From an uncultured Pelagibacteraceae bacterium (lineage in GTDB: Bacteria > Pseudomonadota > Alphaproteobacteria > Pelagibacterales > Pelagibacteraceae), in assembly GCA_902530635.1 (NCBI GenBank), contig CACABC010000002.1, positions 53,501 to 117,500 of the forward strand: a DNA stretch of 64,000 nucleotides. The letters are read 5' to 3'. The notes under the pieces are model-generated. The model made no database searches, was not told where the DNA came from, and was given only the letters and a program-made list of their open reading frames with translations. Position numbers and translations under genes: made by a program. Positions 20,163 through 51,592 of this stretch are shown piece after piece (within the stretch, counting starts at the first letter, position 1; each line of letters starts with the position of its first letter).

Positions 20163-20710
20163 TATTTTTTAAATTTAATTGATTTCTTTATTTTTGAAAT
20201 TAATTCTCTTGCGAGTTGAGATGTATTTTTATTAAAATTGTTTTTTATAAGTACATTATAATTAGTTGGATATTCTGGTTTAATTTTAATGCCGACAATT
20301 TCTCCTTTGACTTTTGGGCTATGATAAATTTTCTTTTTTTTTTTAGAAATTATTTTTTTTAAATTAGATTTGATGTAAATCTCAAAATAATTTTCAATAT
20401 TTTTTCTGTTCCAATTTCTTGGTTCATTCATCATGCCTACTATTGCAAAAATAAGATTAATATTTTGATTTGTAATAAACTTTGCAAATTTACAGAATTT
20501 TCTCGATAAAATTAATCTTGATTTAAGATCATATTTGTTAAATTTAAAAATTTTTCTTAAATCGTCACCACTCATTATTAAAGTAGGACCATATAAATTA
20601 GTTATTTCTCTTTTTATCTTTTTGGCAATTGTAGTTTTTCCAGAACCAGAAAGGCCAGTAACCCAAAATAAAATTCCCTTTTTTTTATTAAATAAGATTT
20701 TCTTTTTCAT
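20162..20710 (-). CDS. cysC: Adenylylsulfate kinase (CysC-like)
   Basis: GILFWVTGLSGSGKTTIAKKI, SGDDLRKIF; APS kinase fold. Confidence 0.82.
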   Translation of the reverse strand: MKKKILFNKKKGILFWVTGLSGSGKTTIAKKIKREITNLYGPTLIMSGDDLRKIFKFNKYDLKSRLILSRKFCKFAKFITNQNINLIFAIVGMMNEPRNWNRKNIENYFEIYIKSNLKKIISKKKKKIYHSPKVKGEIVGIKIKPEYPTNYNVLIKNNFNKNTSQLARELISKIKKSIKFKK

Positions 20711-21813
20711 TTTTTGCTCAATAAAATTTTAGTTAAATCTTTTGTTTTAATTTTTATTGGATTATTTTTAAGCCTTAAAGGATTAATTCCTGAAAGGATT
20801 TTACCATAGTCTTTGTATATATCTATTCCAAGTTTTTTAAAGTTTGTTTCAAGTGCCGACTTTTTTTTAATTTTTTCTATATAAAGTATAAGTTCTAAAA
20901 TAGATCTAGTGCCTGCTAAATTTTGAATAATTTTAAATCTTTTTTGAAGATTAAATTTGCTTTTTGAATAAGCCATGTTTTCAAAATTAAACTTTAAAAA
21001 ATCGTTTAGTGTTAAAGATACAGCGTGACCATGGCTAATATTGTAAAATGCAGTAAAGGGGTAAGAAAGTGCATGTGGCGCAGTAGTTTTCGATATACTT
21101 ATTGCTTTCCCTGAAAAATTTGCTGCAAGAGCCATTTGAAAAGTATTTTTCAGTGATGGATTGTTTACGAAATTTAAATAATTTTTAAAAGATAGCTTTA
21201 AAGATTTTTTTGCATAAAAAACACTTTTAGCTGTTGATTTTAAAGATAAAAGAGACTCAATTGATTGTGATATTGCATCAAAGCCAGCTGAAGCTTTAAT
21301 TTTTTTTGATGCTCTAATAATTAATTCTGGTGATAAAATAAATTTATCTGGTTTGAGACTTTTGTGTTCAATAGAATATTTTATCTTATTAATGTATATA
21401 ACTGCATTTGATGTTACTTCTGCACCAGAACCTGCGGTGGTTGGTATTACTAAAAGATTAAAAGATTTTTCTATAATTTTATAAGTATTTTTTTTAATTT
21501 TTTTATCAACATCAAAAGAAAATTTTAATACATTTACTATTTTTGAGTAATCAATCACAGAGCCTCCACCTAAAGCAATTACAAGATCAGGATTGAATTT
21601 TTTAATTTGTAAGTATATATATTTTAATTCTTTAATCTCTGGATAATAAGATTTCTTAAAATAAAACTTATGAATTTTATTTAATAAAATACTTGGAAGA
21701 ATTTTAGAAGCACCAGATTTGTAATAAGAATTTTTTCCAGTTAAAATAAAAATTTTTTTAAAAGATTTTTTGTATATTATTTTTTTCAGTTTATTGATAC
21801 TTTTATAATTCAT
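20707..21813 (-). CDS. Iron-containing alcohol dehydrogenase, predicted phosphonoacetaldehyde reductase
   Basis: VIALGGGSVIDYSK, VIPTTAGSGAEVTSNAVIY, HAVSLTLNDFLKFN; immediately downstream of ppd. Confidence 0.82.
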   Translation of the reverse strand: MNYKSINKLKKIIYKKSFKKIFILTGKNSYYKSGASKILPSILLNKIHKFYFKKSYYPEIKELKYIYLQIKKFNPDLVIALGGGSVIDYSKIVNVLKFSFDVDKKIKKNTYKIIEKSFNLLVIPTTAGSGAEVTSNAVIYINKIKYSIEHKSLKPDKFILSPELIIRASKKIKASAGFDAISQSIESLLSLKSTAKSVFYAKKSLKLSFKNYLNFVNNPSLKNTFQMALAANFSGKAISISKTTAPHALSYPFTAFYNISHGHAVSLTLNDFLKFNFENMAYSKSKFNLQKRFKIIQNLAGTRSILELILYIEKIKKKSALETNFKKLGIDIYKDYGKILSGINPLRLKNNPIKIKTKDLTKILLSKK

Positions 21814-22910
21814 TAACCAATAAATTGGGTCTTTAATTTCTTAAGTTTAGTCGGTCTTAGGAGGTTTTCAATTTTGTGATTTCTAATTTTTATTTCAAAA
21901 AAACTCGGTCCTTTAGATTTTAAAAATTTATTTAATTCTCTCAAAAAGTTTTTTTTATCTTTTGCTTTAAAAAAATGTTTATAACCTAAACTCAATGATA
22001 AATTTTTAAAATTAATACTGTTTGCTATTGTAGGCTGGCATCCAACAGACTCGTGCGAAGCATTATTAAAAAGTATATGTTTAAAATTTTGCGTCCCAAA
22101 ATTTCCTATCAGTCCCATAGATCCAAGATGCATCAATAATGATCCATCACCGTCTAAGCATAGGACTTCTTCTTTACTATTTAACGCTACGCCTAATGAC
22201 ACCATAGAAGAATGACCCATACCACCAACCATATAAAAGTCTTTGCCATTTTTTAAATTTCTTTCTTTTCGAATTTGAAAAAGTTCACGAGAAGTATATC
22301 CGGTTGTTGAGATTAATTTTGTATCATTTTTTATTTTTTTTAAAATATTTGAAATTGCATAGCTTCTTAAAAGTTTATTTTTATTAACTTTAACTTTAAT
22401 TTTTCTTCTTGATATAAGAACATTACGCTCAACCAGACATGCAACGGGAACTTTTTTTTGTTGAGAATATTTTAAAATTCTTGATATCTTTTTTAAATCT
22501 TTATCATGTCTTAGAATGCAAGTTTTAATTTTTAATAATTTAAGTAATTTCAGGGTGATTTTTCCCTGCTCGATATGCTGAGGTTCATCTTTTGAATTTG
22601 GTGAACCTCTCCAGCCAATTATTAATAACATTGGAACTGAATAAACATTTGAGTTTGCAATTGATACTAAAGGGTTAATCGCATTGCCTAATCCAGAATT
22701 TTGCATGTATACGGCTGCTACTTTTTTCTTTGTTAAATAATAGCCAATAGCTAGTGATATTGCCCCACCTTCATTGGTAGCAATTATATGGCTTTTTTTA
22801 TTTAATTTCTCTAATGGAAACGTGATAGTTTTTAAAACACTATCAGGCACGCCTGTAAAAAAATTAATTTTCTTTTTTAAAGTAGAAATGAACTTTTCTG
22901 AAGATAGCAT
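21813..22910 (-). CDS. ppd: Phosphonopyruvate decarboxylase (TPP-dependent)
   Basis: FTGVPDSVLKTITFPLEK ... ATNEGGAISLAIGYYL ... LCLDGDGSLLMHLGSMGLIG ... FNNASHESVGCQPT. Confidence 0.9.
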   Translation of the reverse strand: MLSSEKFISTLKKKINFFTGVPDSVLKTITFPLEKLNKKSHIIATNEGGAISLAIGYYLTKKKVAAVYMQNSGLGNAINPLVSIANSNVYSVPMLLIIGWRGSPNSKDEPQHIEQGKITLKLLKLLKIKTCILRHDKDLKKISRILKYSQQKKVPVACLVERNVLISRRKIKVKVNKNKLLRSYAISNILKKIKNDTKLISTTGYTSRELFQIRKERNLKNGKDFYMVGGMGHSSMVSLGVALNSKEEVLCLDGDGSLLMHLGSMGLIGNFGTQNFKHILFNNASHESVGCQPTIANSINFKNLSLSLGYKHFFKAKDKKNFLRELNKFLKSKGPSFFEIKIRNHKIENLLRPTKLKKLKTQFIG

Positions 22911-24223
22911 TACTTCACAAGTGTTAAAATATCTTTTATTGGTGTGATTTTATTTTCGATTGGTGATGATCTTTTATGTTTTAAAATCATTTTAGCAGCT
23001 TCAGTCATAGCAGGATAAGCGGCACGTAACATATGATTTGCATAAATAACAATTTTAAAACCGTTTCTAATAAGTTCTGACTCCTTAGTCTTTGAATATG
23101 TAGATGGAACTGCAACCATAGGCTTAAAAAATTTGCTTTTTCTAAATCTTTTTGCAAATGCAAAAATTTCTTTTGGATTCTTTTCTTTACTATGTATTAA
23201 AATTGCATCTGCACCAGCTTTTGAGTATTCATCTGCTCTCTTTAATGCATCCTCTATTTTTTTTCCAAGAATTAAACTCTCTATTCTTGCAATTATCATA
23301 AAATCATCAGATATTTTTGCTTTTTTTGCAACTTTGATTTTTTTACAAAAATCTTTAATTTTATCTTGGGATACATTTTTTTGATTTTTAAAAAGCGAAT
23401 TTTTTTTGAGACCAATTTTATCTTCTATAACTATTGCTGCAACACCTGCTCGCTCTAGGGATTTTACCGTATACGAGATATGTTCAATTCTACCACCATT
23501 ATCTGCGTCAAAAATTATTGGTTTAGTTGTTACATCTAAAATTTCATTTAAACCTGAAAGTCTAGTAGATATATCGACCGACTGATTATCTGGCTTTCCT
23601 CTAGAAACAGAGTCAGTCAAACTGGATGACCACATCCCGTCGAATTCATAAAATCTATTGTTTTTTTCAATACTTAGATTCTCAATAATTAAACCTCCAA
23701 TAGAATTATGTGTCTCTAGTACTCTAACTATATCTTTAACCTGAATTAATCTTTTTAACTTTGATTTTCTAATTTCAGGAGTTGTTCCTGTTTGTAAAAT
23801 TTTATTTTTAATTTTTGAAGATGAAATATTTTTTGTATAGGGAACCTCAATAAGTTTTCCAGACCATTTTTTTAAAGTTTTAATAACTTTTGCTCTTGTA
23901 CTTTTTTGAATACCTGTTTTCCAATCATCACCGTGTACTACATAATTGGGTTTTATTTTTTGAAGATTCTGTGTGTAATCAAGAGTTTTTTGCTGTACCA
24001 CTTTTTTTACATATCTTATATTCTTTAAAATAACTTCACGTTGTCTGTAATTCAAATGAGGTAATTTCCTGTAAGAAGTTATAGCTTTATCCGTTAATAA
24101 TCCCACAGTTACATTTCCTAATTTAGATGCATATTTTAAAATATTGATATGTGCCTCGTGTAAAATATCTGCAGAAAAAGCAACATAAACTGATTTTTTA
24201 CTTTTATTTTTTTTCATTTTCAA
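22910..24223 (-). CDS. pepM: Bifunctional cytidylyltransferase / phosphoenolpyruvate phosphomutase
   Basis: C-term contains the PEP mutase signature EDKIGLKKNS and IFDADNGGRIEHI; N-term YVAFSADILHEAHINILKYASKLG is a cytidylyltransferase-like domain. Confidence 0.92.
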   Translation of the reverse strand: MKMKKNKSKKSVYVAFSADILHEAHINILKYASKLGNVTVGLLTDKAITSYRKLPHLNYRQREVILKNIRYVKKVVQQKTLDYTQNLQKIKPNYVVHGDDWKTGIQKSTRAKVIKTLKKWSGKLIEVPYTKNISSSKIKNKILQTGTTPEIRKSKLKRLIQVKDIVRVLETHNSIGGLIIENLSIEKNNRFYEFDGMWSSSLTDSVSRGKPDNQSVDISTRLSGLNEILDVTTKPIIFDADNGGRIEHISYTVKSLERAGVAAIVIEDKIGLKKNSLFKNQKNVSQDKIKDFCKKIKVAKKAKISDDFMIIARIESLILGKKIEDALKRADEYSKAGADAILIHSKEKNPKEIFAFAKRFRKSKFFKPMVAVPSTYSKTKESELIRNGFKIVIYANHMLRAAYPAMTEAAKMILKHKRSSPIENKITPIKDILTLVK

Positions 24224-24960: not shown

Positions 24961-25793
24961 CTAATCCAAATACGAAGTAACGATCTTTGTGGACCTTTGT
25001 TATTCAATTTAAAACCTGATCTACCATGGGCTAAATAATCATTATTCAAAATAATTATATCACCCTCGTTAAGCCTGTATTTAGTTTGAAATTTTTTTTT
25101 ATTTAACAATTCATCTAATGTATTCATTGCATTAATTATTTTGGGTGACAAAGCTGATTTTTTTATATTATGCCCTGCCTCAATATATTCTCTTAAGTAT
25201 CTAAATCTGAAATTATTATAACTATTTTCAAAAATAGCTTTTTTAAAAATATTGTTATTAGAAAATCTAAAACCTCTTCTCTCAAAATAAAATCTATCTT
25301 TAAGTACATTCAAGATTTTTTTATTATTTTTTTTTAAATATCTATAAATTTTGTTTGTAGAAACAATTATAGAATCTCCTCCTTGCTTGGCCTGATTTAA
25401 GCATGCCATAATTACATATTTCGGGGGACTATATAATTGTGGTCCATCTGAATGTATTGCGCCACCTATATTAGTTTGGTGATACCTTAGTTTAATGTTT
25501 TTATTTTTTAATTTTTTCTTAAGAAGCTTTGTATTAGGTTTAACTAAAACAAATTTTTGTCCATGTTTATTTTGCGACAAAGGTTTACCAAATAATTTTG
25601 AAAATTTTATAGTTTTTGAAATTATTTTATTGGGGTCTTTTTCAAATTTTTTTATTATTATAAAAAAATTTTTTTTATTTAAATATAGCTTTTTAATATT
25701 CTTAATACTATTTTTAAGATTAAGAGTTTTTTTATTATTTTCTGTATAAATTATGAAGTTATTTTTTAGTTGTTTTAAAATATCTTTTTTCAT
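24957..25793 (-). CDS. TauD/TfdA-type Fe(II)/2OG oxygenase
   Basis: GGAIHSDGPQLYSPPKYVIMACLNQAKQGGDSIIVS (HxD) and distal LNNDYLAHGRSGF...RSLLRIWIR (H/R). Confidence 0.78.
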   Translation of the reverse strand: MKKDILKQLKNNFIIYTENNKKTLNLKNSIKNIKKLYLNKKNFFIIIKKFEKDPNKIISKTIKFSKLFGKPLSQNKHGQKFVLVKPNTKLLKKKLKNKNIKLRYHQTNIGGAIHSDGPQLYSPPKYVIMACLNQAKQGGDSIIVSTNKIYRYLKKNNKKILNVLKDRFYFERRGFRFSNNNIFKKAIFENSYNNFRFRYLREYIEAGHNIKKSALSPKIINAMNTLDELLNKKKFQTKYRLNEGDIIILNNDYLAHGRSGFKLNNKGPQRSLLRIWIR

Positions 25794-26446
25794 TTAATTT
25801 TTTTTCTTTTTTTTATAGTATAATTCAAATATTCAAAATCTTTTGCATTATCAAGATCTATACTCTCGTCATCTTGTACTTCAAAGAAAAAAGGTTTGTT
25901 ACCTATTCTGCATTTGTATTTTTTAAGTGCTCTTTTGCTAATTCCATATAGTCCAGTAGTCTCTACAACGACAGGTGTTGCGTCTTGACTTCTTGGTAAT
26001 TTTTTAGGTGAATAATTTACTGGCTTTTTTTTATGCCAAAACCAAGAATATAGAGATTTAGACGTTAATATTGAATCATATTTTTTGGTATTCTTTAAAA
26101 ATTTAATACATGAGTTAATAGTAGATACTGTCATTAGTGGAGAAGTAATAAATAATTGAAAATAAATATCTGCATCAATGATTTTAGAGTGGTAATTGAT
26201 TAGATCATTTCCGTTCGCACTATTCTTTGCAAGTTTTGGTAATCTTTTAATAAAATGGATTTTGTTTTTTTTACAATATTTATTTATTTCATCACTATCT
26301 GAATCAACATAAATTTCATCAAATTTACATTTTAATATTTTATGTAAAAGAATTTTATATAAAGGTACACCATTAATTTTAATAAAATTTTTTCCAGGCA
26401 CTCTAGTAGAGTGCTTCTTTATTGGAATAATTGCAACAACTTTCAT
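25790..26446 (-). CDS. NeuA/CMP-sialate synthetase-like cytidylyltransferase
   Basis: VAIIPIKKHSTRVPGKNFIKINGVPLYKILLHK; QLFITSPLMT. Confidence 0.82.
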   Translation of the reverse strand: MKVVAIIPIKKHSTRVPGKNFIKINGVPLYKILLHKILKCKFDEIYVDSDSDEINKYCKKNKIHFIKRLPKLAKNSANGNDLINYHSKIIDADIYFQLFITSPLMTVSTINSCIKFLKNTKKYDSILTSKSLYSWFWHKKKPVNYSPKKLPRSQDATPVVVETTGLYGISKRALKKYKCRIGNKPFFFEVQDDESIDLDNAKDFEYLNYTIKKRKKIK

Positions 26447-27528: not shown

Positions 27529-28815
27529 TTATTTAAGAACTTTAATGACTTTTTTCTTTTTCAATATGGAGATTTCTGACAAAACTTTGCTTATTTTTTC
27601 ATTTATAGTCTCTGCAATTTGTATCAAATCAAATTTTCCATCTGCATAGGCTAGAATATTCATTCTTGTCTTTACTAAGCTATTCGTTTTTTTTGTACTA
27701 ATAGAGGGATAAAGTTTATATTTTGATAACATTGGTTCTCCTAAAGTTTTAGTTTGAATTTTAATTGTTTGTGTATTTTCAATTAGATTAATAACTTTTT
27801 TGTATATTTTAATTGAGGAGTCTAGTCCTTGAATTGAAATAAATTTTAAATCATCATGGGATGTATGGTATTCTGGATATTCACCGTATTTACTTTTCAT
27901 GATTGAACATACCGGCAAATCTACTCCTGGACTATTGTATTGTCTTTCATCACTACCTCGATCCAAAAAACTGTAATATTTTACTTTCTTTTTTTGTCTT
28001 TTGAGAACATATCTTGCAGCACAGTCCGCTAAGGTATTACCCTTTTTTGATTGTAAAAACGAAAAGTTCTTGTTGTCTCCAACACATACAACTTGAAACC
28101 CGGCAATTAAATTTTTTTTTAAATATTTTATATTTTTTTTTAAATATCCTATTGTTCCTATAGTTTCTGGAAGAAACAAAATTCTATATGAATATTTTTT
28201 ATTTTTTTTAGTTTTTAACCATTTAGCTAAGGCCAAAGATACTACTAGACCAGAAATTTCATTATTACCCATGGATGGATGGCAAATATTGGTTGAGATT
28301 AAAATTTCTTTTTTTAGCTTACCTTTTATATATATTTCTCCATATTTTAAATTTCCCTTTTTAAAATTTGAATCAATAACCACTTTATATTTGCCTTTCT
28401 TTAATACCTTTCTTTTATTATGTGAAATACAAAAGCCCCAATGTTTTTTATAATAACTGGTAACATATGGAATTGCATTTGGTTGTGATTTAAGTGAATA
28501 AATATGCTTGTTTAACTTCTTGAAATTTAAAATTTTATTAATTGGTCTAGAATACCCAACAAGATGTAAATTATTTTCTTTAAAATCTATAATTTTTTTT
28601 CCTTTTAATTCAGCAACATATGCATCTCGTACATTCCACTCTAGTGGAATGTTCCAGTCAAAAACTTTATGGCCGCTCTTTATATTGTGAATTTTTAATT
28701 GAGAGCAAATTTTTTTAAAGTAAACAAGAGTTTTATTCACTCCTTCTCCAGTCAAACTTCTATTAAATGGAAATATATTCTTGGCCCAAGAATATGCTTT
28801 TTTTCCTTCTGACAT
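27529..28815 (-). CDS. DUF4910/DUF2172-like aminopeptidase-domain protein
   Basis: LFPFNRSLTGEGVNKTL start; ILISTNICHPSMGNNEISGLVVSLALAKWL and PVCSIMKSKYGEYPEYHTSHDDLKFI. Confidence 0.75.
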   Translation of the reverse strand: MSEGKKAYSWAKNIFPFNRSLTGEGVNKTLVYFKKICSQLKIHNIKSGHKVFDWNIPLEWNVRDAYVAELKGKKIIDFKENNLHLVGYSRPINKILNFKKLNKHIYSLKSQPNAIPYVTSYYKKHWGFCISHNKRKVLKKGKYKVVIDSNFKKGNLKYGEIYIKGKLKKEILISTNICHPSMGNNEISGLVVSLALAKWLKTKKNKKYSYRILFLPETIGTIGYLKKNIKYLKKNLIAGFQVVCVGDNKNFSFLQSKKGNTLADCAARYVLKRQKKKVKYYSFLDRGSDERQYNSPGVDLPVCSIMKSKYGEYPEYHTSHDDLKFISIQGLDSSIKIYKKVINLIENTQTIKIQTKTLGEPMLSKYKLYPSISTKKTNSLVKTRMNILAYADGKFDLIQIAETINEKISKVLSEISILKKKKVIKVLK

Positions 28816-28821
28816 AATAAT

Positions 28822-29058
28822 TTATTTTATTATTTTTTTAAGAATTTTATTGATGGATTTTTCATCCATCATTTGTATTACTAGCTTTTGATCAAGATTA
28901 ATTTTAAAATATTTTTCAATTGAAATTATTAATTGTAAATGACCAAACGAGTCCCAATTTTCCACATTTTGCGTGCTTAGATTTTTTTCAACACTATTTT
29001 TTAAGTTAAATTCCTTAATAATTATATTTCTAATTATTTGTTCTAATTTCTTTTCCAT
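28822..29058 (-). CDS. Acyl carrier protein
   Basis: 78 aa with phosphopantetheine site ENWDSFGHLQLIISIEKYF; overlaps downstream end of the AMP-ligase. Confidence 0.88.
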   Translation of the reverse strand: MEKKLEQIIRNIIIKEFNLKNSVEKNLSTQNVENWDSFGHLQLIISIEKYFKINLDQKLVIQMMDEKSINKILKKIIK

Positions 29059-30619
29059 TTTTTATTCTGCTTAATTTATTAGTATCAATTTTTCCATTTT
29101 TATTACGAGGAAAATCACTATTTATAATAACAATTTTTTGTGGAACCATATATTTTGGTAGTTTTTTCGATAATATTTTTGTAATTTTATCCTGATTCAA
29201 AGAATTATTTTTTGTCGAAACAAATGCTGCGATATATTTTTTACTATTTTTTTTATCAAAATCTACTACAACTTTTGTTTGGTCAACTGTTTCTATACCA
29301 GAAATAGCATGCTCGATCTCTTCAATTTCAATTCTATAGCCCTGGACTTTAACTTGGTTGTCTGATCTTCCAACGTAAAAATAATTACCTTCACTATCAA
29401 TTTTTAAAATGTCACCAGTTTTGTAAATTTTTTGCGGAAATCTCTCATCAACTGGATTATTAATATAATATTTTTTATTCAAATAAGGACTTGCCCAATA
29501 CCCCTCGGAGATTTGTGGTCCATAAACATAATGTTCACCTTTTTTTGCATGTGGTGTAAATTTATTTCCATTCATAAGAATAACCCTTATCAAAGGTAAT
29601 GGTTTTCCTACTGGTATAGATTGATTCTTTTTTATATTTTTTGGAATCTCATAACTGTGAGATATTATTGCGGTTTCTGTAGTTCCATAAACGTTATAAA
29701 CTTTTGATTTCTTTACATGTTTATACCAATCATAGATAAGATTTTTTGGTATAGCTTCACCTGTCAAAACTAAGTGTTTAATTTGTTTAATTTCTTTTTT
29801 TTCCAAGTTTGAGTTTTCACGTAAATTATTAATTAAACTTGGAATACAGAATACTACATCAATTTTTTTGTTTTCTTTAAAGTAAATATAAGGATTAATT
29901 CTATAACTTCTTTTATTAAAAGGGATTAAAGTACCAGAATTCATCCAGCAAACAAAAAGATCGAAAATTGAAGGATCAAAAGTCAAATCCGAAAAATGTG
30001 AAAATCTAAGTCCTTTTTCAAACTCAAAAAGTTTTTTAGATAAATTTAAAAAAGTGCTTGTATTTTTGTGAGTTACCATAACACCCTTTGGATTTCCTGT
30101 ACTTCCTGAAGTAAAAATAATATAAGCCAGATCACTTGGTGAAAGGTCATACTTCATTACAGGCTTGTCTGATTTATACTTTTTTAGAGACGATAAATTA
30201 TATATGTTTTTACTAGTTTTTTTTGTTTCATCTAATATTAAAATTTTCGTATTAAAATTTTTCAATGTACTTGAAAACTTTGCAAAGTACTTCTTTTCAC
30301 TTATGATAAATTTTGGTCTTAAAACTTTGATTAAATAAGATATTCTTGCATTCGGGAAAGAAGCAGATAAAGGTACCCAGCAAGCCCCACTTTTTAGTAT
30401 ACCTAACACTGAAGCATATTGATTAATGTTTTTTTCAGTAAAAATACAAATTCTATCGTTTGGCGCAATTTCGTTTGTTATCAAAAAATTAGCTATTTTA
30501 TTTGAAAATTTATCTAGATAGCTATATTTAAAATTTTTTCCTTCATAGCTAACACAAATTTTATTAGGGTTTTTCTTTGCTGTTTCTTCAAAAAAATCTT
30601 GTTGGAAATTTAAGTTCAT
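29030..30619 (-). CDS. Amino-acid adenylation-type AMP-dependent ligase
   Basis: LAYIIFTSGSTGNPKGVMVTHKN; YKTGDILKIDSEGNYFYVGRSDNQVKVQGYRIEIEEIE; PRNKNGKID. Confidence 0.92.
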   Translation of the reverse strand: MNLNFQQDFFEETAKKNPNKICVSYEGKNFKYSYLDKFSNKIANFLITNEIAPNDRICIFTEKNINQYASVLGILKSGACWVPLSASFPNARISYLIKVLRPKFIISEKKYFAKFSSTLKNFNTKILILDETKKTSKNIYNLSSLKKYKSDKPVMKYDLSPSDLAYIIFTSGSTGNPKGVMVTHKNTSTFLNLSKKLFEFEKGLRFSHFSDLTFDPSIFDLFVCWMNSGTLIPFNKRSYRINPYIYFKENKKIDVVFCIPSLINNLRENSNLEKKEIKQIKHLVLTGEAIPKNLIYDWYKHVKKSKVYNVYGTTETAIISHSYEIPKNIKKNQSIPVGKPLPLIRVILMNGNKFTPHAKKGEHYVYGPQISEGYWASPYLNKKYYINNPVDERFPQKIYKTGDILKIDSEGNYFYVGRSDNQVKVQGYRIEIEEIEHAISGIETVDQTKVVVDFDKKNSKKYIAAFVSTKNNSLNQDKITKILSKKLPKYMVPQKIVIINSDFPRNKNGKIDTNKLSRIKNGKEIRTNN

Positions 30620-31428
30620 TTTAAAGGAAATTTATCTATTTTATATTTTGGCTTTCGTTTAAGAAAAAAATTTATATCTTTTTTTAAACAACTAATTCCT
30701 ACATCGAAACAAGGCTTCATTTTGACTTTCGTAATTTTGATTTTTTTATTTTTATTTTCAACTAAAATTTTATTCTTTTTTAAAATTTTTTTAAAATTTT
30801 CTAAATCATAAATTACATCCAGATTTAAATATCTTAGTGTACTGATGCTATTATTAAATTGTTTTTTTCCCTTATGTGTAATAGGAACATTAAAAAGTTT
30901 ATTATACAGGTAAGGAACACCAAATCTAAATTCTATATACCTCGTAAAAGTAAACGTAGCTTCGGAAAAATCACAACCTAATAAAACAATATCAGCATTT
31001 AAATTATAAAGTTTATCCCAAGCAGAATCGACACCGAATCCATTGCTAGTTCCTCCTTCTGTAATAAATTTAGCTTTTTTTCCAATTGCTGTAATATTAA
31101 ATAATGGATTATTAGATCTGAATGAATTTGGTTTTTTTGTTAAATAATGACTTAATGCACCAAACTCTCTGTGAGAATTAGATTTCTTTTTGTCAAAATT
31201 TATTTTCCTATCAGCATAATCCCAGTTAGAGCTGGGAACGCATATTGTGGAATTTTTTCCAAAATTTTTCTTTAGAATGTTTAGTATTACTTCTGGCATC
31301 TTATTTATTTTTACGCCATTTGCTATTCCAATATGAACTAGAGAGGAATGAACAACATAACAAGAATTTTTTTTAAAATTAATTTGTTTTAGAGCGTTAT
31401 CAATCTCTTTTTTTGATATTTTTTGCAT
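30616..31428 (-). CDS. AAC(3)-family N-acyltransferase
   Basis: CYVVHSSLVHIGIANG ... HREFGALSHYLTKKPNSFRSNNPLFNITAIGKKA; AAC(3) fold motifs. Confidence 0.82.
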   Translation of the reverse strand: MQKISKKEIDNALKQINFKKNSCYVVHSSLVHIGIANGVKINKMPEVILNILKKNFGKNSTICVPSSNWDYADRKINFDKKKSNSHREFGALSHYLTKKPNSFRSNNPLFNITAIGKKAKFITEGGTSNGFGVDSAWDKLYNLNADIVLLGCDFSEATFTFTRYIEFRFGVPYLYNKLFNVPITHKGKKQFNNSISTLRYLNLDVIYDLENFKKILKKNKILVENKNKKIKITKVKMKPCFDVGISCLKKDINFFLKRKPKYKIDKFPLK

Positions 31429-31448
31429 TTTGTTTTAGGTGCTAAAAT

Positions 31449-32555
31449 CTATTTTTTATCATCTCCGTCAAGATACCAGGTGTACATATTTCCATCTTTT
31501 GCTATCTCAACACTTTGAGGTTTCTTCCAGCTAGGATTCCATTTGAGTCTTTCTTCATAACTAAAGCCTGAGTTTAGAAGCAAAGAATTATCTTCTAACC
31601 TTTTTTTTATAATTGTATCCTCGTAAATTACTATTTTTCCAATATCACTCAATACTGCATACTTTGGTTTTGATCTTCCTGAAAATAAACCACAGCTACT
31701 TAATCTTCTTGTAAGATCATAACCTTTTTTTAAACTGGTTCTGTGGTGACTTGTTCCAACCATTGGAATTGCATGAAATAAGTAATGTGCCTCGATATCA
31801 TTTTCTCTTAATTTTTTATATAATTCCACTAAAGTGGAAAAGTCGTCGTTAACTCCTTTGAGAAGAGGGTTCTGGTTATAAATTTTAAAACCAATATTTT
31901 GAAGTTTTTTTATGGATTTAATAGATTCATCCCAAAACTCTAGGGGGTGGTTTACATTTATTCCCACTTCGAATCTAAATTTTTTAAAACTTGAAAATAA
32001 TTCCAACATGCCATCATTGATTCTTTCTGGGTCTTGAAATGGGACTCTTGTTCCTATTCTTATAATGGATATATTTGGAGCATTCTTTTCTATTTGTTCT
32101 AAAGTAAATTTCAAAAGAGGAAGGCTCATTAGAGGGTCTCCACCTGTTATTAGCACCTCGAACACATCCTTTTTATTTTCCTTTGAAGACATATATTTTG
32201 TTGCTCTAATAATTTCATCTTTTTTCATTGTCTGAATTGGATATTGACCCCTTAGACACCATCTGCAGTGTGCCGCACATACAGTTGTTGGCTCAATTAA
32301 AATTGTGGGTTTATAGAGTCTCTCAACACCTACTAAGGGCATACCCTCATAACTAACTTCAACGTTTGACTCATAGTGTCTTGTTCTCTCTATATTGCTT
32401 GAATAATTTTCTTTTTTAGATTGTAAATATTGTGAGGCAACAGCAAAATATTCTTTACTATCAACACCATAATCTTTTTTTAAATCATGAATTTTTGATT
32501 TTAAAAAAGGTGATATAATTTCTTTAAATGATCCTTTTTCTTTTGTACCGGCCAT
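31449..32555 (-). CDS. KamA-family (lysine 2,3-aminomutase-like) radical SAM protein
   Basis: KPTILIEPTTVCAAHCRWCLRGQYPIQTMKKDEI ... VLITGGDPLMSLPLLKFTLEQI; CxxxCxxC present. Confidence 0.82.
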   Translation of the reverse strand: MAGTKEKGSFKEIISPFLKSKIHDLKKDYGVDSKEYFAVASQYLQSKKENYSSNIERTRHYESNVEVSYEGMPLVGVERLYKPTILIEPTTVCAAHCRWCLRGQYPIQTMKKDEIIRATKYMSSKENKKDVFEVLITGGDPLMSLPLLKFTLEQIEKNAPNISIIRIGTRVPFQDPERINDGMLELFSSFKKFRFEVGINVNHPLEFWDESIKSIKKLQNIGFKIYNQNPLLKGVNDDFSTLVELYKKLRENDIEAHYLFHAIPMVGTSHHRTSLKKGYDLTRRLSSCGLFSGRSKPKYAVLSDIGKIVIYEDTIIKKRLEDNSLLLNSGFSYEERLKWNPSWKKPQSVEIAKDGNMYTWYLDGDDKK

Positions 32556-32557
32556 GA

Positions 32558-34606
32558 TTAGTTTAACCTTGAAAATCCAGAAGTTTTTGTTGGTCCCTCT
32601 AATAAATTATCAATATTTTTTTTATTCATCTCACAATCTCGAATAGTCCTAAAAATACAATCTAAATTTTTAAAATATTTTTTAATGATATTATTATCAT
32701 GATGTACAGAAATGTAAATCGTGTTTGATGCTAAGAAATTTTTTTTAAGCATTTCTTGAGTTAAAAACGTTTGATATTTCAAATTATTTTTGTTTATAAA
32801 GTTGAATGTGCAAAGAGCGTCTAATCCAGAAATAGAAATTTTTAATTTATATTTTTTTGAGAGTTTGATCCATGATTTTTTAATTTTTTTTCCTATTAAT
32901 GAAATTTTTTTCCATGATTTAGTCCTCTCCATAACCTGGAGAGTTTTTAGGCCTGCTGTCGGTCCAATTCTTTCTGTCCAAAAAGTACTACTTATGAACG
33001 AATTGTTAGCGTGTTTCATAACCTCAGATTTTCCAAGTATAGCGTTTATTGCGTACCCATTCCCTAAAGCTTTTCCGAATACAGCTAAATCGGGATATAC
33101 TTTATATTTCATGTGTAACCCTCCAAAATTTTCTCTAAAGCCAGAAGTACACTCATCAAAAATAAGAATAATATTATATTTATTTGCTAGTCGTCGAACT
33201 TTGATAAGAAAATTATTTTTTGGTGGAAAATTTCTCATTACTTCCATTTTTATAATTCCAACATCTGGATGTTTTTTAATTATTTTTTTTAAATCATTAA
33301 TTTCGTTATATCTGAAAGTAAAAACAGTATTTTTAAGTTTTTTAGGTACTCCAGAATTTGGAATACCATCTATAAGATGATTTTTAAGATTATTTGATTT
33401 ATTTAAGTTTGCAGAGATATACCAATCATGCCAACCATGATAGCCGCAAATTGCAATCTTATAGCGTGGTCCAGCTGCAGCTCTAGCAATTCTTATCGCT
33501 ACAGCGTTTGCTTCTCCTCCACTTCTAGTAAATTTAGATTTTGAAGCCCAAGGATGTAAACTAATTAATTTTTCAGCTAAAAAAACTTCTTCTGGGCAAT
33601 TCAGGGTGGTTAGATTTCCTTTTTGAATTGTATTTTTGACAGCATTATCAACTTCTGGGTTCGAGTATCCCAAAATATTTGTTCCAACACCCATTAAAGA
33701 AAAATCCGTAAATCTTTTGTTATTTAAATCCCAAACATAACATTGCTTAGCTTTACTAAAGTAGCAAGGCCAAAGATTTGGTGCAAATCTATCCTCTCTT
33801 TTAGATAAAAGCATATTACCCCCTTCGATTGAGTTTTTAGCCCTTCTCCAAAACTTTTGTCCAAGTCCCATTTTAAAGCCTTCGTTTCTCATCTTATTTC
33901 CTACGTTAAAAAGCTTCATTTTAATCATAGCCTTATTTATTTCATCAAAAGAGAAAACTATTCTTGGATAAAAATAATTAAATATTTTTTTTATTTTCCA
34001 CAAATCATTTTTTTCATCTAGAGTTAGATTTTCTTTGGACAAATCTTTTGTATTTAATAAATTAATTTTTTTGCAATTAATTTTATTAATTAGAGTAGTG
34101 ACATGTTCTCTGTCACTTAACTTTTTTGTAATTTTTTCAAGCTTTTCCAAAATTTTAAATGAAATTACTTCTACGTCCATGCCATCTGGGAAAGATGCAG
34201 GATAAATATTACTTGAATATTCAGCTTTTTCTAAGAAATGTCTTTTTACAATTTTATCTATTAAGAACGGATCTACAAGTGGGCAATCACCTGTGACTCT
34301 GACAATATTTTGAGCTTTTATTTTTTTTGCAATTTTATAAAAACGCTTAAGAACATCATGCTCTGATCCTTTAAAGAACTTTATTTTTTTTTCTTTTAAA
34401 TGCTTCTCTAAATTTTTATTTTTTTTATTATTTGGTATAGCTACTATTATTTTATCAACGTTTTTAGATTTCGATAACCTTGAGACTATTATTTGAATTA
34501 TACTTTTTCCATTAATTTTATATAAAACTTTTTTTGGAAATCTTATAGAATTTTCTCTAGCCTGTACTAAAACAACAGTTTTATGTTTTTTTATATTTAT
34601 TTCCAT
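32558..34606 (-). CDS. Fusion: SpsF-type cytidylyltransferase + class III (GSA-type) aminotransferase
   Basis: N-term VLVQARENSIRFPKKVLYKINGKSIIQI; C-term FTRSGGEANAVAIRIARAAAG, LAVFGKALGNGYAINAI PLP lysine. Confidence 0.9.
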   Translation of the reverse strand: MEINIKKHKTVVLVQARENSIRFPKKVLYKINGKSIIQIIVSRLSKSKNVDKIIVAIPNNKKNKNLEKHLKEKKIKFFKGSEHDVLKRFYKIAKKIKAQNIVRVTGDCPLVDPFLIDKIVKRHFLEKAEYSSNIYPASFPDGMDVEVISFKILEKLEKITKKLSDREHVTTLINKINCKKINLLNTKDLSKENLTLDEKNDLWKIKKIFNYFYPRIVFSFDEINKAMIKMKLFNVGNKMRNEGFKMGLGQKFWRRAKNSIEGGNMLLSKREDRFAPNLWPCYFSKAKQCYVWDLNNKRFTDFSLMGVGTNILGYSNPEVDNAVKNTIQKGNLTTLNCPEEVFLAEKLISLHPWASKSKFTRSGGEANAVAIRIARAAAGPRYKIAICGYHGWHDWYISANLNKSNNLKNHLIDGIPNSGVPKKLKNTVFTFRYNEINDLKKIIKKHPDVGIIKMEVMRNFPPKNNFLIKVRRLANKYNIILIFDECTSGFRENFGGLHMKYKVYPDLAVFGKALGNGYAINAILGKSEVMKHANNSFISSTFWTERIGPTAGLKTLQVMERTKSWKKISLIGKKIKKSWIKLSKKYKLKISISGLDALCTFNFINKNNLKYQTFLTQEMLKKNFLASNTIYISVHHDNNIIKKYFKNLDCIFRTIRDCEMNKKNIDNLLEGPTKTSGFSRLN

Positions 34607-35454
34607 TTTGAAGGATCTATTAATTTTTTATTTTTTTGGGATAAAAAACTTTCAAATTTTAGATTTTTTTTTATTTTACAATCTAAGACTTGTTTAAATT
34701 GTTTTTCATTTTCAATACCAATTACATATCCTGAAATATTTTTCACACCATTAATAAATGATAAGCAAGCTGTTAATCCTGATATTCTATTTTTATTTAA
34801 CCAATTATAATAATCTTTCCAAAAAGTTCTCCATCTTTTAAAGTACTTCATTTTTCTTAAGTCTTTAGATAGTAATATTCCTTGTAAAAATATGGATCTA
34901 GCATGTATTTCAATATTTTTTTTTCTAATATTTTGTAAAAAATTTTTATCACAAAAAGTTTGATTAATAATATTTAATGGAACTTGAAGAATATCAAATT
35001 TATACTTTTTTAATAAAATCTTTGCTTCTCTTAAATTATAAACAGAAAATCCAATTTTTTTTATCTTTCCTTTTTTTTTTAGCTCATTTAAATTTAAAAT
35101 ATATTTTTTATATTTATTATTTAGTAAAATATTTGAGTTATGTATCAAAACACAATATAGAGATTTAGTTTTTAAGTCTCTAACAATATTTTTAATTATT
35201 TTTTCTATCCATAGTTCTGCATTTATATTGTTATTAGTAGGAATAGATATTTTTGTTATTACTTTAATTTTATTTAAATTTAATTTTCCTAAAATTTTAT
35301 GTACTCCAGAATAATTTATTGACGTATCTATATATCTAACTTTATTTTTGTTTGAATTTTTAATAATTTTTTTAAATTCGGAAAATCTGATAGATTTTTT
35401 TAAAAAACCGTATTTTTTATTAAGATTTGCAGTACCAAGAATTATTTGTGACAC
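34597..35454 (-). CDS. Aldo/keto reductase
   Basis: LGTANLNKKYGFLKK ... YIDTSINYSGVHKILG ... KKIGFSVYNLREAKILL. Confidence 0.82.
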   Translation of the reverse strand: MSQIILGTANLNKKYGFLKKSIRFSEFKKIIKNSNKNKVRYIDTSINYSGVHKILGKLNLNKIKVITKISIPTNNNINAELWIEKIIKNIVRDLKTKSLYCVLIHNSNILLNNKYKKYILNLNELKKKGKIKKIGFSVYNLREAKILLKKYKFDILQVPLNIINQTFCDKNFLQNIRKKNIEIHARSIFLQGILLSKDLRKMKYFKRWRTFWKDYYNWLNKNRISGLTACLSFINGVKNISGYVIGIENEKQFKQVLDCKIKKNLKFESFLSQKNKKLIDPSKWK

Positions 35455-35461
35455 GAAAGAT

Positions 35462-36508
35462 TTATTTTATAAAACTTAATTTTAAAGGTGTAGCTTGCAT
35501 AATGTTTTTTTTCGCTGTTTTGCCAATAACTTTTTCAAAGTATTTTGGATGCAAACCATACCCGGGTCTAATAATTTTTATATTGTTGTAATTAATTTTA
35601 TCTCCTTTTTTAATATTTCTAACAACAAATATTGATCTTTTTAATCTTGAATTTTTTATTTCAGTTTTGTCAATTTCAAATTTTTTTTGTCCCAAAGCTT
35701 CCCAGGCAGCAAATGTTTCTTTTACAAGTGCACGAAATTCCTGGGGTGGGAGAGAAAAATCTTTGTCAACACTTCCATCATTATTTTTTAAAACTATATG
35801 TTTTTCAATAATTGTTGCTCCAAACGCAATACTAGCAACAGCTGCGCCAATGCCTTTGGTATGATCAGATAAACCAATTTCACACTTAAGTTTATCTCTT
35901 AATAATTCAATTGATTTTAAATTTGAACTTGATGGATGGGATGGATAACTACTTGTGCATTTTAAAAAAGCAAAATTTTTATTTTTTGTCTTAATGAAAA
36001 TTTTTCTAATTTCCTCAATTTCTCTTAGTTGAGTCATACCTGTTGATACTATTACTGGTTTCATGGTATTTGCTACTTTTTCAATTAGTGGAAAATGATT
36101 ATTTTCAAATGATGCTATTTTGTATGCGGGGCAATCAAGCTTTTCTAAATAATCTAATGATTTAAAATCAAATACAGAGCTAAAACAAATTATTCTATTT
36201 TTTTTTGCAAAATTAAATATCTTTTTGTGCCATTTTTTTGGTGTAATAGCTTTAGTGTATAAATCAAAAAGTTTTTTTCCATTCCATGGGCTTGCTCTGT
36301 CATTAATTCTAAAATAATTTTTTTCAGAGTTTATAGTAATTTCATTTAAATCAAATGTTTGTAGTTTTACTGCGCTTGCTCCAGCTTTTTTAGCACTTCT
36401 AATAATCTTTAAAGCTCTATTTAAGGATCCTTTGTGGTTTCCAGAAATCTCAGCAATTATAAAAGGTTTATGATTTTTGCTTATAATTCTTTTGCCAATT
36501 TTAAACAT
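35462..36508 (-). CDS. pseI: N-acetylneuraminate/pseudaminic acid synthase (NeuB/PseI family, with SAF domain)
   Basis: FIIAEISGNHKGSLNRALKIIRSAKKAGASAVKLQTFDL ... LKCTSSYPSHP ... GLSDHTKGIGAAVASIAFGATIIEKH; C-term SAF region. Confidence 0.9.
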   Translation of the reverse strand: MFKIGKRIISKNHKPFIIAEISGNHKGSLNRALKIIRSAKKAGASAVKLQTFDLNEITINSEKNYFRINDRASPWNGKKLFDLYTKAITPKKWHKKIFNFAKKNRIICFSSVFDFKSLDYLEKLDCPAYKIASFENNHFPLIEKVANTMKPVIVSTGMTQLREIEEIRKIFIKTKNKNFAFLKCTSSYPSHPSSSNLKSIELLRDKLKCEIGLSDHTKGIGAAVASIAFGATIIEKHIVLKNNDGSVDKDFSLPPQEFRALVKETFAAWEALGQKKFEIDKTEIKNSRLKRSIFVVRNIKKGDKINYNNIKIIRPGYGLHPKYFEKVIGKTAKKNIMQATPLKLSFIK

Positions 36509-36959
36509 ACTTTAATTTCAAAATTTTAATATTTTTTTTAGTTTTGTTAATTATAAAACCTGCAGATTGTAAAGCTCTCAAAGATTTTAGATTATTATTA
36601 AAAACTTTCGCAAAAATTGGTTCCTTTTTTTTATTATATTTTTTGAATTTTTTTATAAATAAATTTAACATTACAGAAGAATAACCCATACCTCTTTGCT
36701 TTGGAGAAATAATATATCCGATTTCTAAATATTTATTTTTTTTTAAATATACTGCTCCACATTTTTTTGCTTTTGAAAAGAAAATCCATAAAAAACCCCT
36801 TAATTTAATTTGATGATTAAACCACTTTGAATGATCAGATAATTTTATTTTTTTTTTATTAAAACTCATTTTTCTAGTTGAAATATTATTTCGTAAATTG
36901 TAAAAATATCTAGAGTCATTTTTTTTTGCTATAGACAATCTAAAATTTTTATTTTTCAA
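36501..36959 (-). CDS. GNAT-family acetyltransferase (PseH-like)
   Basis: YLEIGYIISPKQRGMGYSSVMLNLFIKKF GNAT acetyl-CoA motif; next to NeuB/PseI. Confidence 0.75.
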   Translation of the reverse strand: MKNKNFRLSIAKKNDSRYFYNLRNNISTRKMSFNKKKIKLSDHSKWFNHQIKLRGFLWIFFSKAKKCGAVYLKKNKYLEIGYIISPKQRGMGYSSVMLNLFIKKFKKYNKKKEPIFAKVFNNNLKSLRALQSAGFIINKTKKNIKILKLKYV

Positions 36960-37151: not shown

Positions 37152-38309
37152 TTACCTTCTTAAAAGGAAAGCTTTTATTAAATAGCAAATCTTATTAACT
37201 TGTTTTATACTAAGATTATAGTAAATCGGTAAGGAAATTTCATCTTCAAAAAACTTTTCGGCTATTGGGAAATCACCTTTTTTATATCCAAAATTTTTCA
37301 TATAAAATGGCTGTAAATGTATTGGAGTGTAATGAACTTGTAAGAAAATGTTCTTTTTTGCAAGAAAATCAAAAAGTTTCCACTTCTTTTTTCCAATTTT
37401 TTTAAAATTAATTAATAATGGAAATAGATGATAAGCATGATAATTATTTTCTTTGACGTATTGTGTTTTAAAAAAATTTTTACCCTCAAAATTTTTTCTA
37501 TAAATTTTCGCAATTTCATTTCTTTTTTTTACAAATTTATCTAATTTTTTTAATTGACTGATTCCTAATGAGCATTGAATATCCGTGATTCTATAATTGA
37601 ACCCAAGATATTTCATCTGATAATTCCAGGGTTTTTCTTTAATTTTAGTTTTTAACACACCATGTGATCGTAAAATTTTTACCTTATCATGAATTTTTTT
37701 ATCATTAGTTAATACTGCTCCACCCTCTCCAGTGGTTATATTTTTAACTGCATGGTAACTATGGACAGCTATATCGGCATATTTAGAGGCATAATTTTTT
37801 TTGTAATAATATTTAGCTCCAATTGCGTGGCAATTGTCATTTATTAATTTTACATTAAATTTTTTTGTAATAAGAGAAAGTTTTTTCCAGTCACAAGGGT
37901 TCCCAGCAAAATCTGTTGCGATCAGAGCTTTTACTCTTCTTTTATATTTGTTGTACTTTTTTATTTTTTTTTCTACTTCAATTAAATCAATATTAAAATC
38001 TTTTTCATTAATATCTATAAATACTGGTGTAGCACCACAATAAATGACAGCATTAGATGCTGCCAAAAAGCTCATTACTGAACACAATATTATATCATTT
38101 TTTTTCCATCCTAATGCTAAACCGCATAAATGAAGACCAGCAGTTCCATTGATAACAGCACAAGAATATCTAGATCCAAATTTTTTGTTTAAAACCTTCT
38201 CAAATTTTGTAACTTGTGGTCCTTGAGTTAACTTTTTACTTCTTAGTGTTGAAATAACAGATTTTTCATCGAGTTTATCGATGTACTGTTTACCGTAAGT
38301 GATTGTCAT
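37152..38309 (-). CDS. pseC: DegT/DnrJ/EryC1 aminotransferase (PseC-like)
   Basis: SYHAVKNITTGEGGAVLTND PLP lysine motif; LHLCGLALGW; adjacent to PseB. Confidence 0.85.
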   Translation of the reverse strand: MTITYGKQYIDKLDEKSVISTLRSKKLTQGPQVTKFEKVLNKKFGSRYSCAVINGTAGLHLCGLALGWKKNDIILCSVMSFLAASNAVIYCGATPVFIDINEKDFNIDLIEVEKKIKKYNKYKRRVKALIATDFAGNPCDWKKLSLITKKFNVKLINDNCHAIGAKYYYKKNYASKYADIAVHSYHAVKNITTGEGGAVLTNDKKIHDKVKILRSHGVLKTKIKEKPWNYQMKYLGFNYRITDIQCSLGISQLKKLDKFVKKRNEIAKIYRKNFEGKNFFKTQYVKENNYHAYHLFPLLINFKKIGKKKWKLFDFLAKKNIFLQVHYTPIHLQPFYMKNFGYKKGDFPIAEKFFEDEISLPIYYNLSIKQVNKICYLIKAFLLRR

Positions 38310-38312
38310 TAA

Positions 38313-40176
<1,864 letters not shown>

Positions 40177-49640: not shown

Positions 49641-50567
49641 TTAATAATAAAACCACAATAAATGTCTCTCTCCTTTTTTTGGCATAATTCCATAATGAGC
49701 AGTTTTTAAATCAATTAGAGCTAAATCTCCTTTTTTACAATTTAAAAATAATTTTTTACAACTTTCGTTTAATTTATTTAATTCAGCCCCCTCAACGTAA
49801 TGTGACTCACCATTTTCTATTTTAAATTCAAATTGTTTAAGTAAAAGATTAGTATAATATTTTTTTAGCATTTTAGAATGTGTTGATTTATTATAGTAAA
49901 TAGTTGCTCCATTTTCTTCATTAACATCATTAAGAGCCACAAAACATCTTAGTTTATGTATATAAAGATCTATATGAGGTTTGCCGGCTATTGCCTCATT
50001 GCTTTTAACTTTGCTGTAGTCTTTTAATACTGGATGAACAGCACTACCATCATGAGTAACATTATAAATAACATATGGTTTATTCTTATTTAGATGGTAG
50101 GTGAGTGTTATCAAGTTTAATTCTAATTTTTTTCCAATTTTATTAAAAAAAGAATTTAAAGAATTAAGACCTTTGATCTTTATAGATCTTCCTAATTTTT
50201 CTAAATAAATTGTTTTTTCATTAATATTTATACTCTCACTCTGGATATATTCAGTATTTTTTGCCTTTTCTAATGGTATTTGATCTAGAATTCCCGAACA
50301 CTCTTTTTTTAAATTGTTAATTTCTTCATCAGAATAAAAGTTTTCGATTATAGCTACTCCATTTTCTTTTAGCTGCTTAAGGGCTTTTTTTACCTTGTTA
50401 TCCTTTTTTAAAAATATTGAAATTAAAAATATTCGGAATTTAAAGAAAATATCATCTAAATTTATGATTATAGAAAAAATAGGTTTGGCAAATTTTTTAT
50501 TTAATTTTTTGAAAAACCTTAATTTTTTGATAATTTTATATATCATGATTTTAAAAAACTTTTCCAA
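49641..50567 (-). CDS. Phytanoyl-CoA dioxygenase (PhyH)-like Fe(II)/2OG oxygenase
   Basis: LKENGVAIIENFYSDEEINNLKKEC ... KPHIDLYIHKLRCFVALNDVNEENGATIYYNKSTH ... DLKTAHYGIMPKKGERHLLWFYY. Confidence 0.82.
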   Translation of the reverse strand: MEKFFKIMIYKIIKKLRFFKKLNKKFAKPIFSIIINLDDIFFKFRIFLISIFLKKDNKVKKALKQLKENGVAIIENFYSDEEINNLKKECSGILDQIPLEKAKNTEYIQSESININEKTIYLEKLGRSIKIKGLNSLNSFFNKIGKKLELNLITLTYHLNKNKPYVIYNVTHDGSAVHPVLKDYSKVKSNEAIAGKPHIDLYIHKLRCFVALNDVNEENGATIYYNKSTHSKMLKKYYTNLLLKQFEFKIENGESHYVEGAELNKLNESCKKLFLNCKKGDLALIDLKTAHYGIMPKKGERHLLWFYY

Positions 50568-51592
50568 ATATTTTCTATTAGCTTAATATCTTTTGCTGCA
50601 TCTTCTGCCTTATTAACTTTAATTTTATTATTTTTAATATCGTTAATAAAAGCATCACATTGATTTTTGAAAGACCAAGATTTTTTTGATTTGAATAAGT
50701 GATTTTTTCCTGACAACCTTTTATTAATCACAAAACTTGCAGACTTATTCTTAAGATGTTGTGGAGGAAGTTTTACTATTATAGAACCAAATTCAAAATA
50801 TATTTCAAAAGTTTCATCCCAACCATGCTTTGTAAAAAAACCAGTTTCAAGAATAGCATTAAATTTTTTATATTTAAGATTCACTAAAGAAATTTTGTCA
50901 TCTGATAAATCTGCGTGAAGAACTTTTGGAATTTCATTTGTAAAATATCTTAATAAACTTACGTTGTGACAATAAAGATTTAAGTATTTTTCATAAGCTT
51001 TTTTAAATTTATTAGGTAGCCAATTTGGTTTCAATGGCCAACTAGGTTTTTTAATAAAATTTTTTTCTGAAGTTTTCAAATAAAAATTTTTACTATCATA
51101 ACCGCTACCGGACAGCCTATGAGATTTTATTAATACTATTTTTCCCAAACTTCTGTTTTTAAGTATTTTATCATAAGCTTTTTTGGCTTTGATTATACCT
51201 TCGTCATAAATTTTATTATATCCAACTTTGTGTAAAGATTTATTTCTTTTAGCGATACGTAAGAGTTTGGATGATTGTATAGAATTCCCCGCCATTGGCT
51301 TTTCCGTTAAAATAGGTTTACTAAGTTTTAGAAATTCTGAAGAAATGGGACCGATCATTTCTCTCTTGGTTATTATAGCAACACCATCATATTTCTTGAT
51401 ATCTTTTATTAAACCTCTATGAGAAAAATAGGAATTTTTTATTTTGTATTTTTTAGTTATTTTTTTTCTTAATTCGTTTCTTGCTTCAACAAGTCCAAAT
51501 ATTTTACAGTTTTTATTCTTATAAAAGTTTTCAATAAAACCTATTTGACCGTTAAATCCTCCACCTACAATTCCAACTTTAATTTTTTGCAT
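50543..51592 (-). CDS. Gfo/Idh/MocA-family oxidoreductase
   Basis: VGIVGGGFNGQIGFIENFYKNKNCKIFGLVEAR; LTEKPMAG. Confidence 0.88.
   Translation of the reverse strand: MQKIKVGIVGGGFNGQIGFIENFYKNKNCKIFGLVEARNELRKKITKKYKIKNSYFSHRGLIKDIKKYDGVAIITKREMIGPISSEFLKLSKPILTEKPMAGNSIQSSKLLRIAKRNKSLHKVGYNKIYDEGIIKAKKAYDKILKNRSLGKIVLIKSHRLSGSGYDSKNFYLKTSEKNFIKKPSWPLKPNWLPNKFKKAYEKYLNLYCHNVSLLRYFTNEIPKVLHADLSDDKISLVNLKYKKFNAILETGFFTKHGWDETFEIYFEFGSIIVKLPPQHLKNKSASFVINKRLSGKNHLFKSKKSWSFKNQCDAFINDIKNNKIKVNKAEDAAKDIKLIENIWKSFLKS

Follow-up and report, generated by a model that had tools for sequence, protein, structure and literature searches.

A candidate aminomutase, ligase and carrier protein module beside pseudaminic acid-type genes in an uncultured Pelagibacteraceae bacterium

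Our analysis of a five-gene run (27529-32555) in a 64,000-nucleotide stretch of contig CACABC010000002.1 from an uncultured Pelagibacteraceae bacterium, hereafter called the window, suggests that these genes probably form a module which makes a beta-amino-acid side group and attaches it to a pseudaminic-acid-type nonulosonic acid. The strongest sign is that one mutase, the KamA-like radical SAM/PLP protein KAM, is recurrently paired with unrelated carboxylate activators, which suggests that KAM makes the acid that is later activated. Amino-acyl groups on sialic-acid-like sugars are known chemically, including amino-acyl legionaminic acid in C. botulinum (PMC5207245); the genes that make or attach them are mostly unknown. 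The five-gene module represents a concrete, testable gene set for such amino-acyl sugar tailoring.

All five genes are encoded on the minus strand in an operon-like arrangement (Table 1), with intergenic distances of 6 nt (DUF4910/ACP), -29 nt (ACP/ligase), -4 nt (ligase/AAC(3)) and 20 nt (AAC(3)/KAM). Profile matches and gene calls agree with the five consecutive genes described in the first-pass annotation, and the 29-nt overlap of ligase and ACP that it had reported is exact. In the proposed pathway, KAM would turn a small neutral amino acid into a beta-amino acid by shifting its amino group, and the ligase would adenylate this product and charge the ACP with it at the phosphopantetheine. 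Transfer from the ACP would then fall to an acyltransferase, for which the AAC(3)-fold protein is the most likely candidate, perhaps with help from the DUF4910 protein; the acceptor would be an amino group on either the sugar made by PseB and PseC or the completed sugar acid. The sugar acid would be CMP-activated and become part of a surface glycan. The sequences themselves show which enzyme families are present, which catalytic residues are retained or lost, how the genes are linked and what is co-conserved, and from these we infer the substrate, the order of the steps, the acceptor and the identity of the transferase.

Table 1. Genes of the predicted module and of the adjoining sugar pathway in the window.
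Feature	Coordinates	Strand	Remarks
KAM, KamA-like radical SAM/PLP protein	31449..32555	-	368 aa; predicted 2,3-aminomutase, small neutral amino acid
AAC(3)/Antibiotic_NAT-fold protein	30616..31428	-	270 aa; predicted N-acyltransferase, divergent 'Arg type'
Stand-alone amino-acid adenylating ligase	29030..30619	-	529 aa; TIGR01733
Acyl/aminoacyl carrier protein (ACP)	28822..29058	-	78 aa; phosphopantetheine site Ser37
DUF4910-DUF2172-HTH_47 protein (CA_C2195 family)	27529..28815	-	428 aa; PF16254, 3k9t
SpsF-type cytidylyltransferase/HemL-like aminotransferase fusion	32558..34606	-	PF02348 + PF00202
Aldo/keto reductase	34597..35454	-	PF00248
PseI, pseudaminic acid synthase	35462..36508	-	TIGR03586 431.1 bits vs cut-off 340.3
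GNAT acetyltransferase, PseH-like	36501..36959	-	TIGR03585 23.5 bits, below cut-off 93.1
PseC aminotransferase	37152..38309	-	TIGR03588 425.1 bits vs cut-off 423.5
PseB dehydratase	38313..39317	-	TIGR03589 504.9 bits vs cut-off 407.8
CMP-sugar synthetase-like (PseF/KdsB family)	25790..26446	-	PF02348; TIGR03584 45.5 bits, below cut-off

The nonulosonate neighbours named earlier are borne out: they adjoin KAM upstream, and PseB, PseC and PseI all exceed their equivalog cut-offs, which makes a pseudaminic-acid-type nonulosonic acid the most likely surface sugar. PseG had no match in the window with three candidate queries taken from related loci. A holo-ACP synthase is encoded in the window's genome. 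The window also carries phosphonate genes at 20.7-24.2 kb, with PEP mutase and phosphonopyruvate decarboxylase above equivalog cut-offs. Their presence would fit a module that tailors a phosphonate, as FrbF does, and so would the fold comparison, in which FrbF ranks first for the AAC(3)-like protein. However, none of the 25 KAM relatives has a homologue of either phosphonate enzyme in its flanks, and nonulosonate genes of pseudaminic/legionaminic type recur at KAM loci (relatives of PseI, PseC and PseB in six loci each). We consider phosphonate tailoring highly improbable; the nearby phosphonate genes are probably unrelated to the module, and a nonulosonic acid remains the favoured acceptor.

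KAM is predicted to be a 2,3-aminomutase. It matches TIGR03822 (E=2.9e-42) and exceeds the cut-off of Pfam Radical_SAM. With lysine 2,3-aminomutase (2a5h) and KamA it shares the fold family, the Fe-S cysteines, Arg134 and the PLP Lys; it differs from them in the loss of both lysine-binding Asp residues, and it misses all curated cut-offs (TIGR03820, 118.9 vs 525.4 bits; TIGR00238, 128.5 vs 199.2 bits). Aligned to our residue reference, the C. subterminale lysine 2,3-aminomutase (CsLAM, 2a5h), the window KAM retains Cys93, Cys97 and Cys100 of the CxxxCxxC cluster, the carboxylate-binding Arg102 (CsLAM Arg134) and Lys307 (PLP Lys337). The printed CsLAM segment stops short of this Lys, which was placed via the G-K motif of other KamA proteins. 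In lysine 2,3-aminomutase, Asp293 and Asp330 bind the side-chain amine of the substrate; in the window KAM, these positions are occupied by Ile263 and Leu302. Across the KAM relatives with readable sequence, apart from the divergent L035, Ile or Val stands in for Asp293 and Leu or Met for Asp330, with Arg134 and the PLP Lys unchanged. Both Asp residues are present in five of six other KamA proteins used as controls. The exception, a Rhizobium plasmid protein annotated 'lysine 2,3-aminomutase', has Arg and Met instead, so that loss of the Asp residues alone is not unique to the KAM clade. Since both lysine-binding positions are hydrophobic, the substrate of KAM is probably a small neutral amino acid, and the residues predict a new substrate class for this aminomutase clade. 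Moreover, the conserved Arg points to binding of a free carboxylate, and KAM thus likely acts on a free neutral amino acid rather than on an ACP-bound one. No characterised enzyme within the clade was found in the literature searched. The distribution of PanD does not decide for or against beta-alanine as the product: it had no match in genome G000 and five other KAM genomes, and is present in two KAM genomes.

An alignment of two KAMs (window and Magnetococcales) retrieved 25 loci besides the window, in proteobacteria, Bacteroidota, Streptomyces, Phycisphaerae and Thaumarchaeota; pattern scans using a single KAM protein gave no match in genome contigs or viral contigs. KAM is present in one of the 397 genomes sampled from the family and, at a strict cut-off, in two of 398 phylum genomes. 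One of these two is the window's own, and the second is a Magnetococcales MAG (G133; same contig as L029). Due to this rarity, few loci bear on co-conservation, and several of these are closely related.

A carboxylate-activating enzyme is encoded near KAM in 18 of the 26 loci, window counted, which correspond to fewer than 18 independent events because several loci are close kin. Four types can be distinguished: an A-domain ligase with ACP (window, L013, L015, L016 and L029), a PaaK-like CoA ligase (L014, L021, L022, L023 and L024), an ADP-forming acyl-CoA synthetase (L026, assigned by Pfam, and L032, assigned by similarity, both thaumarchaeal) and a PGM1-type ATP-grasp enzyme with a transporter alongside in six Streptomyces loci (assigned by Pfam in L027 and L025, by similarity in the others). 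Magnetospirillum sp. UT-4, a cultured strain, carries the PaaK type. The A-domain and PaaK types are interleaved on the tree of KAM sequences, where the window protein clusters with those of two Pelagibacteraceae of the PaaK type at moderate support (90/96). This kinship and the small, AT-rich genome point to a SAR11-like bacterium. Judged from this gene linkage, the activating enzyme is interchangeable among KAM loci. LpxD-like N-acyltransferases are encoded in L021, L024, L026 and L032, as well as in L022, where the copy is cut by the contig end. Because KAM is paired with alternative activators and five of its loci carry such N-acyltransferases, the most economical reading is that a beta-amino acid is activated and placed on an amino sugar. 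Other uses of KAM are possible, since no activating enzyme was identified beside it in L017-L020, L035 and L037, and L033 and L036 were not judgeable; in the GC-rich loci, genes were called mechanically and an activating enzyme could be missed. A PhyH-type dioxygenase lies near six KAM loci; we dropped it as a part of the module, the window's only match being weak and distant (49644-50582). As a tentative generalization, about which we are slightly doubtful, KAM may define a family of radical SAM 2,3-aminomutases in Bacteria and Archaea that acts on neutral amino acids (alanine, giving beta-alanine, or one similarly small) and mainly supplies beta-amino-acyl groups for nonulosonic acids via interchangeable activators. 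As a marker, the clade could also help to locate loci of this kind in Streptomyces, in marine bacteria and in archaea that oxidise ammonia.

Among the loci with the A-domain type, L013 has KAM-AAC(3)-ligase-ACP in the same order as the window, and L015 has AAC(3)-ligase-ACP-KAM-DUF4910 beside PseB-, PseC- and PseI-like genes. L016 carries KAM-ligase-ACP, with AAC(3) and DUF4910 divergent and close by. KAM thus has DUF4910 next to it in L015 and in the vicinity in L016. In L029, an unclassified protein is followed by the ligase (37% identical), the ACP and KAM (44%), next to flhA-like and other flagellar genes, whose names we read from the sequences. The co-occurrence of all five genes expected in the first-pass annotation therefore holds in part: mutase, ligase and ACP are found together in five loci, one of which comes from a different class of the phylum and has flagellar genes as neighbours instead, whereas AAC(3) is present in four of the five and DUF4910 in three.

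The ligase exceeds the cut-off of the TIGR01733 amino-acid adenylation domain (325.7 vs 317.4 bits). Asp215 of its FDPS motif, the amino-binding Asp, is kept in five orthologues, and the pocket positions relative to GrsA, which we take to be D P F F V T V I I K, suggest a pocket that fits a small side chain. KAM loci alone yielded true ligase orthologues (>840 bits); the matches in L080 and L081 (~340 bits) were discarded as ordinary NRPS domains with no KAM nearby. The ACP alone had no Pfam match and carries the WDS phosphopantetheine motif, which is invariant across five aligned ACPs. The ligase, ACP and AAC(3)-like protein might also move an ordinary alpha-amino acid such as alanine or glycine, with KAM acting elsewhere, for example on a sugar or on an ACP-bound aminoacyl group. 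Such a route would agree with the Asp kept in the ligase, which binds the amino group in alpha-amino-acid A-domains, with the KAM loci in which no ligase was identified, and with the alanyl- and glycyl-type groups known on flagellin sugars (PMC5207245). However, an Asp conserved among adenylation enzymes is reported to bind the amino group of beta-amino acids as well (PMC11284099). Moreover, KAM retains the carboxylate-binding Arg and the PLP Lys of an aminomutase, and its occurrence near four activator types is best explained if KAM makes their acid. We regard transfer of an alpha-amino acid as unlikely and favour a beta-amino acid as the activated group.

The AAC(3)-like protein belongs to Antibiotic_NAT (PF02522, 91 bits vs cut-off 25), and its predicted structure (mean pLDDT 77.6) matches that of AAC(3)-IIIb as well as FrbF, with TM about 0.7. 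The family uses a His/Glu dyad in the motif T-x-x-H-x-x-E (PMC8956665); the window protein has Thr160-x-x-Arg163-x-x-Glu166, with Arg at the position of the catalytic His, and its role as transferase is thus only inferred. A plain resistance enzyme was rejected, as the protein scores 61.5 bits against the 270-bit AAC(3) cut-off and the catalytic His is absent. The same Arg is found in all four KAM-linked AAC(3)-like proteins and in L002; the remaining 33 in our sample have His (31) or Met (two). The Arg may be an adaptation to amino-acyl donors, in which case the amine of the donor might act as the base, or may mean that the protein is not the transferase or works differently. The model in which a beta-amino acid is passed to an amino sugar, put forward in the first-pass annotation, is largely supported by the residues kept in the mutase, the pairing with activators and the nonulosonate links; its AAC(3) transferase step is weakened by this Arg.

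An alternative for the same pathway is that the DUF4910 protein or the PseH-like GNAT protein acts as the transferase, with the Arg-type AAC(3)-like protein otherwise employed, for example in ACP docking. The DUF4910 protein matches PF16254 (E=1.3e-94) as well as DUF2172 and HTH_47, and PDB 3k9t (E=6.9e-95). Das et al. 2014 linked DUF4910 with ACP, N-acetyltransferase, SpsE/NeuB and SpsF genes, proposed a modification of amino sugars and suggested that DUF4910 could transacylate an amino sugar (PMC4000134). This suggestion, the Arg in the KAM-linked proteins and the gene content of L029 all favour another transferase; L029 has a GNAT-superfamily protein instead of AAC(3), three of nine members of the family of its unclassified protein matching the GNAT model Acetyltransf_1. 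The same paper reports the DUF4910 family to lack a recognisable peptidase active site, which speaks against DUF4910 as the enzyme. The family assignment of the first-pass annotation stands, whereas 'aminopeptidase' is only a label of the fold. Furthermore, Thr160, Glu166 and the overall fold are intact in the AAC(3)-like protein, whose gene adjoins the ligase in three of four loci. Many His-type Antibiotic_NAT proteins are encoded next to FkbH-domain or ligase genes (FkbH confirmed in L003), and carrier-bound donors thus fit the family. On balance, a different transferase seems somewhat unlikely, and the AAC(3)-like protein remains our preferred candidate.

The system is not wholly new, since its context of DUF4910, ACP, N-acetyltransferase, NeuB and SpsF genes was published in 2014 (PMC4000134). 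The neighbourhoods described there share the DUF4910 family, ACP, N-acetyltransferase and nonulosonate genes with the window, but the example in the printed table has an ATP-grasp ligase and lists neither a radical SAM aminomutase nor an A-domain ligase. What is new is the coupling of an aminomutase to nonulosonate genes, together with the clade-wide loss of lysine-binding residues and an occurrence that extends across Bacteria and Archaea. Among the open-licence papers searched, we found no report joining an aminomutase with nonulosonic acids.

Other systems resemble parts of the module. Like Dlt D-alanylation, it combines a stand-alone amino-acid ligase with a small carrier protein. However, the ligase scores 264.9 bits against the cut-off of 559.9 of the DltA equivalog TIGR01734, and neither DltB (MBOAT) nor DltD was found among the 20 genes scanned with Pfam (20162-40176); on these grounds we rejected a Dlt variant. 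The type B flagellin glycan of C. difficile likewise carries an amino acid on an amino sugar and involves acyltransferase and D-alanine-ligase-like genes, but its sugar is Fuc3N rather than a nonulosonic acid, and no mutase is described in the accessible text (PMC5207245). The order of radical SAM 2,3-aminomutase, stand-alone ligase and ACP recurs in macrolactam starter pathways such as that of incednine (IdnL4/IdnL1), where IdnL4 is thought to use glutamate and a polyketide synthase takes the place of the sugar as acceptor (PMC11284099).

Within the same surface-glycan island of the window, the PEP mutase and the phosphonopyruvate decarboxylase of a phosphonate gene set both exceed equivalog cut-offs. 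The set groups a cytidylyltransferase–PEP mutase fusion, the decarboxylase and an Fe-alcohol dehydrogenase, and suggests the formation of CMP-activated hydroxyethyl- or aminoethylphosphonate. The window also encodes an unusual fusion of an SpsF-type cytidylyltransferase with a HemL-like class III aminotransferase, the product of which may place a further amino group on the sugar.

Genes for AAC(3)-like proteins were also found in other settings. An FkbH-domain gene adjoins one not only in L003 but also in loci L039, L041, L043 and L053-L066, in some cases with an ACP gene in between, and this pair, which recurs in the phylum, possibly represents a second carrier-dependent acyl-tailoring module. 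In L012, the gene for an Arg-type protein (Arg in place of the catalytic His) has neither an A-domain ligase nor KAM, the KamA-like predicted aminomutase, beside it; its gene run includes several genes for radical SAM proteins, one for a TauD-like dioxygenase and others that resemble LuxC/LuxE.

In six Streptomyces loci (L025, L027, L028, L030, L031 and L034), genes for a PGM1-type ATP-grasp ligase and an MFS transporter come after KAM; together they form a cluster that may direct the synthesis of a small peptide containing a beta-amino acid. An ordinary KamA (L111) is adjoined by ATP-grasp D-Ala-D-Ala-ligase-like and ornithine-cyclodeaminase-like genes.

Coordinates of the features in the window and in related loci
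Feature	Locus	Position	Source
Phosphonate set	window	20707-24223	
SpsF-type/HemL-like fusion	window	32558-34606	
FkbH-domain gene and adjoining AAC(3)-like gene	L003	128-2247	G027, same genus as window
Arg-type AAC(3)-like gene and its run	L012	10856-18897	G031, same family as window
KamA, ordinary type (Asp293 and Asp330 retained), with its adjoining genes	L111	1354-3490	Thioflavicoccus plasmid
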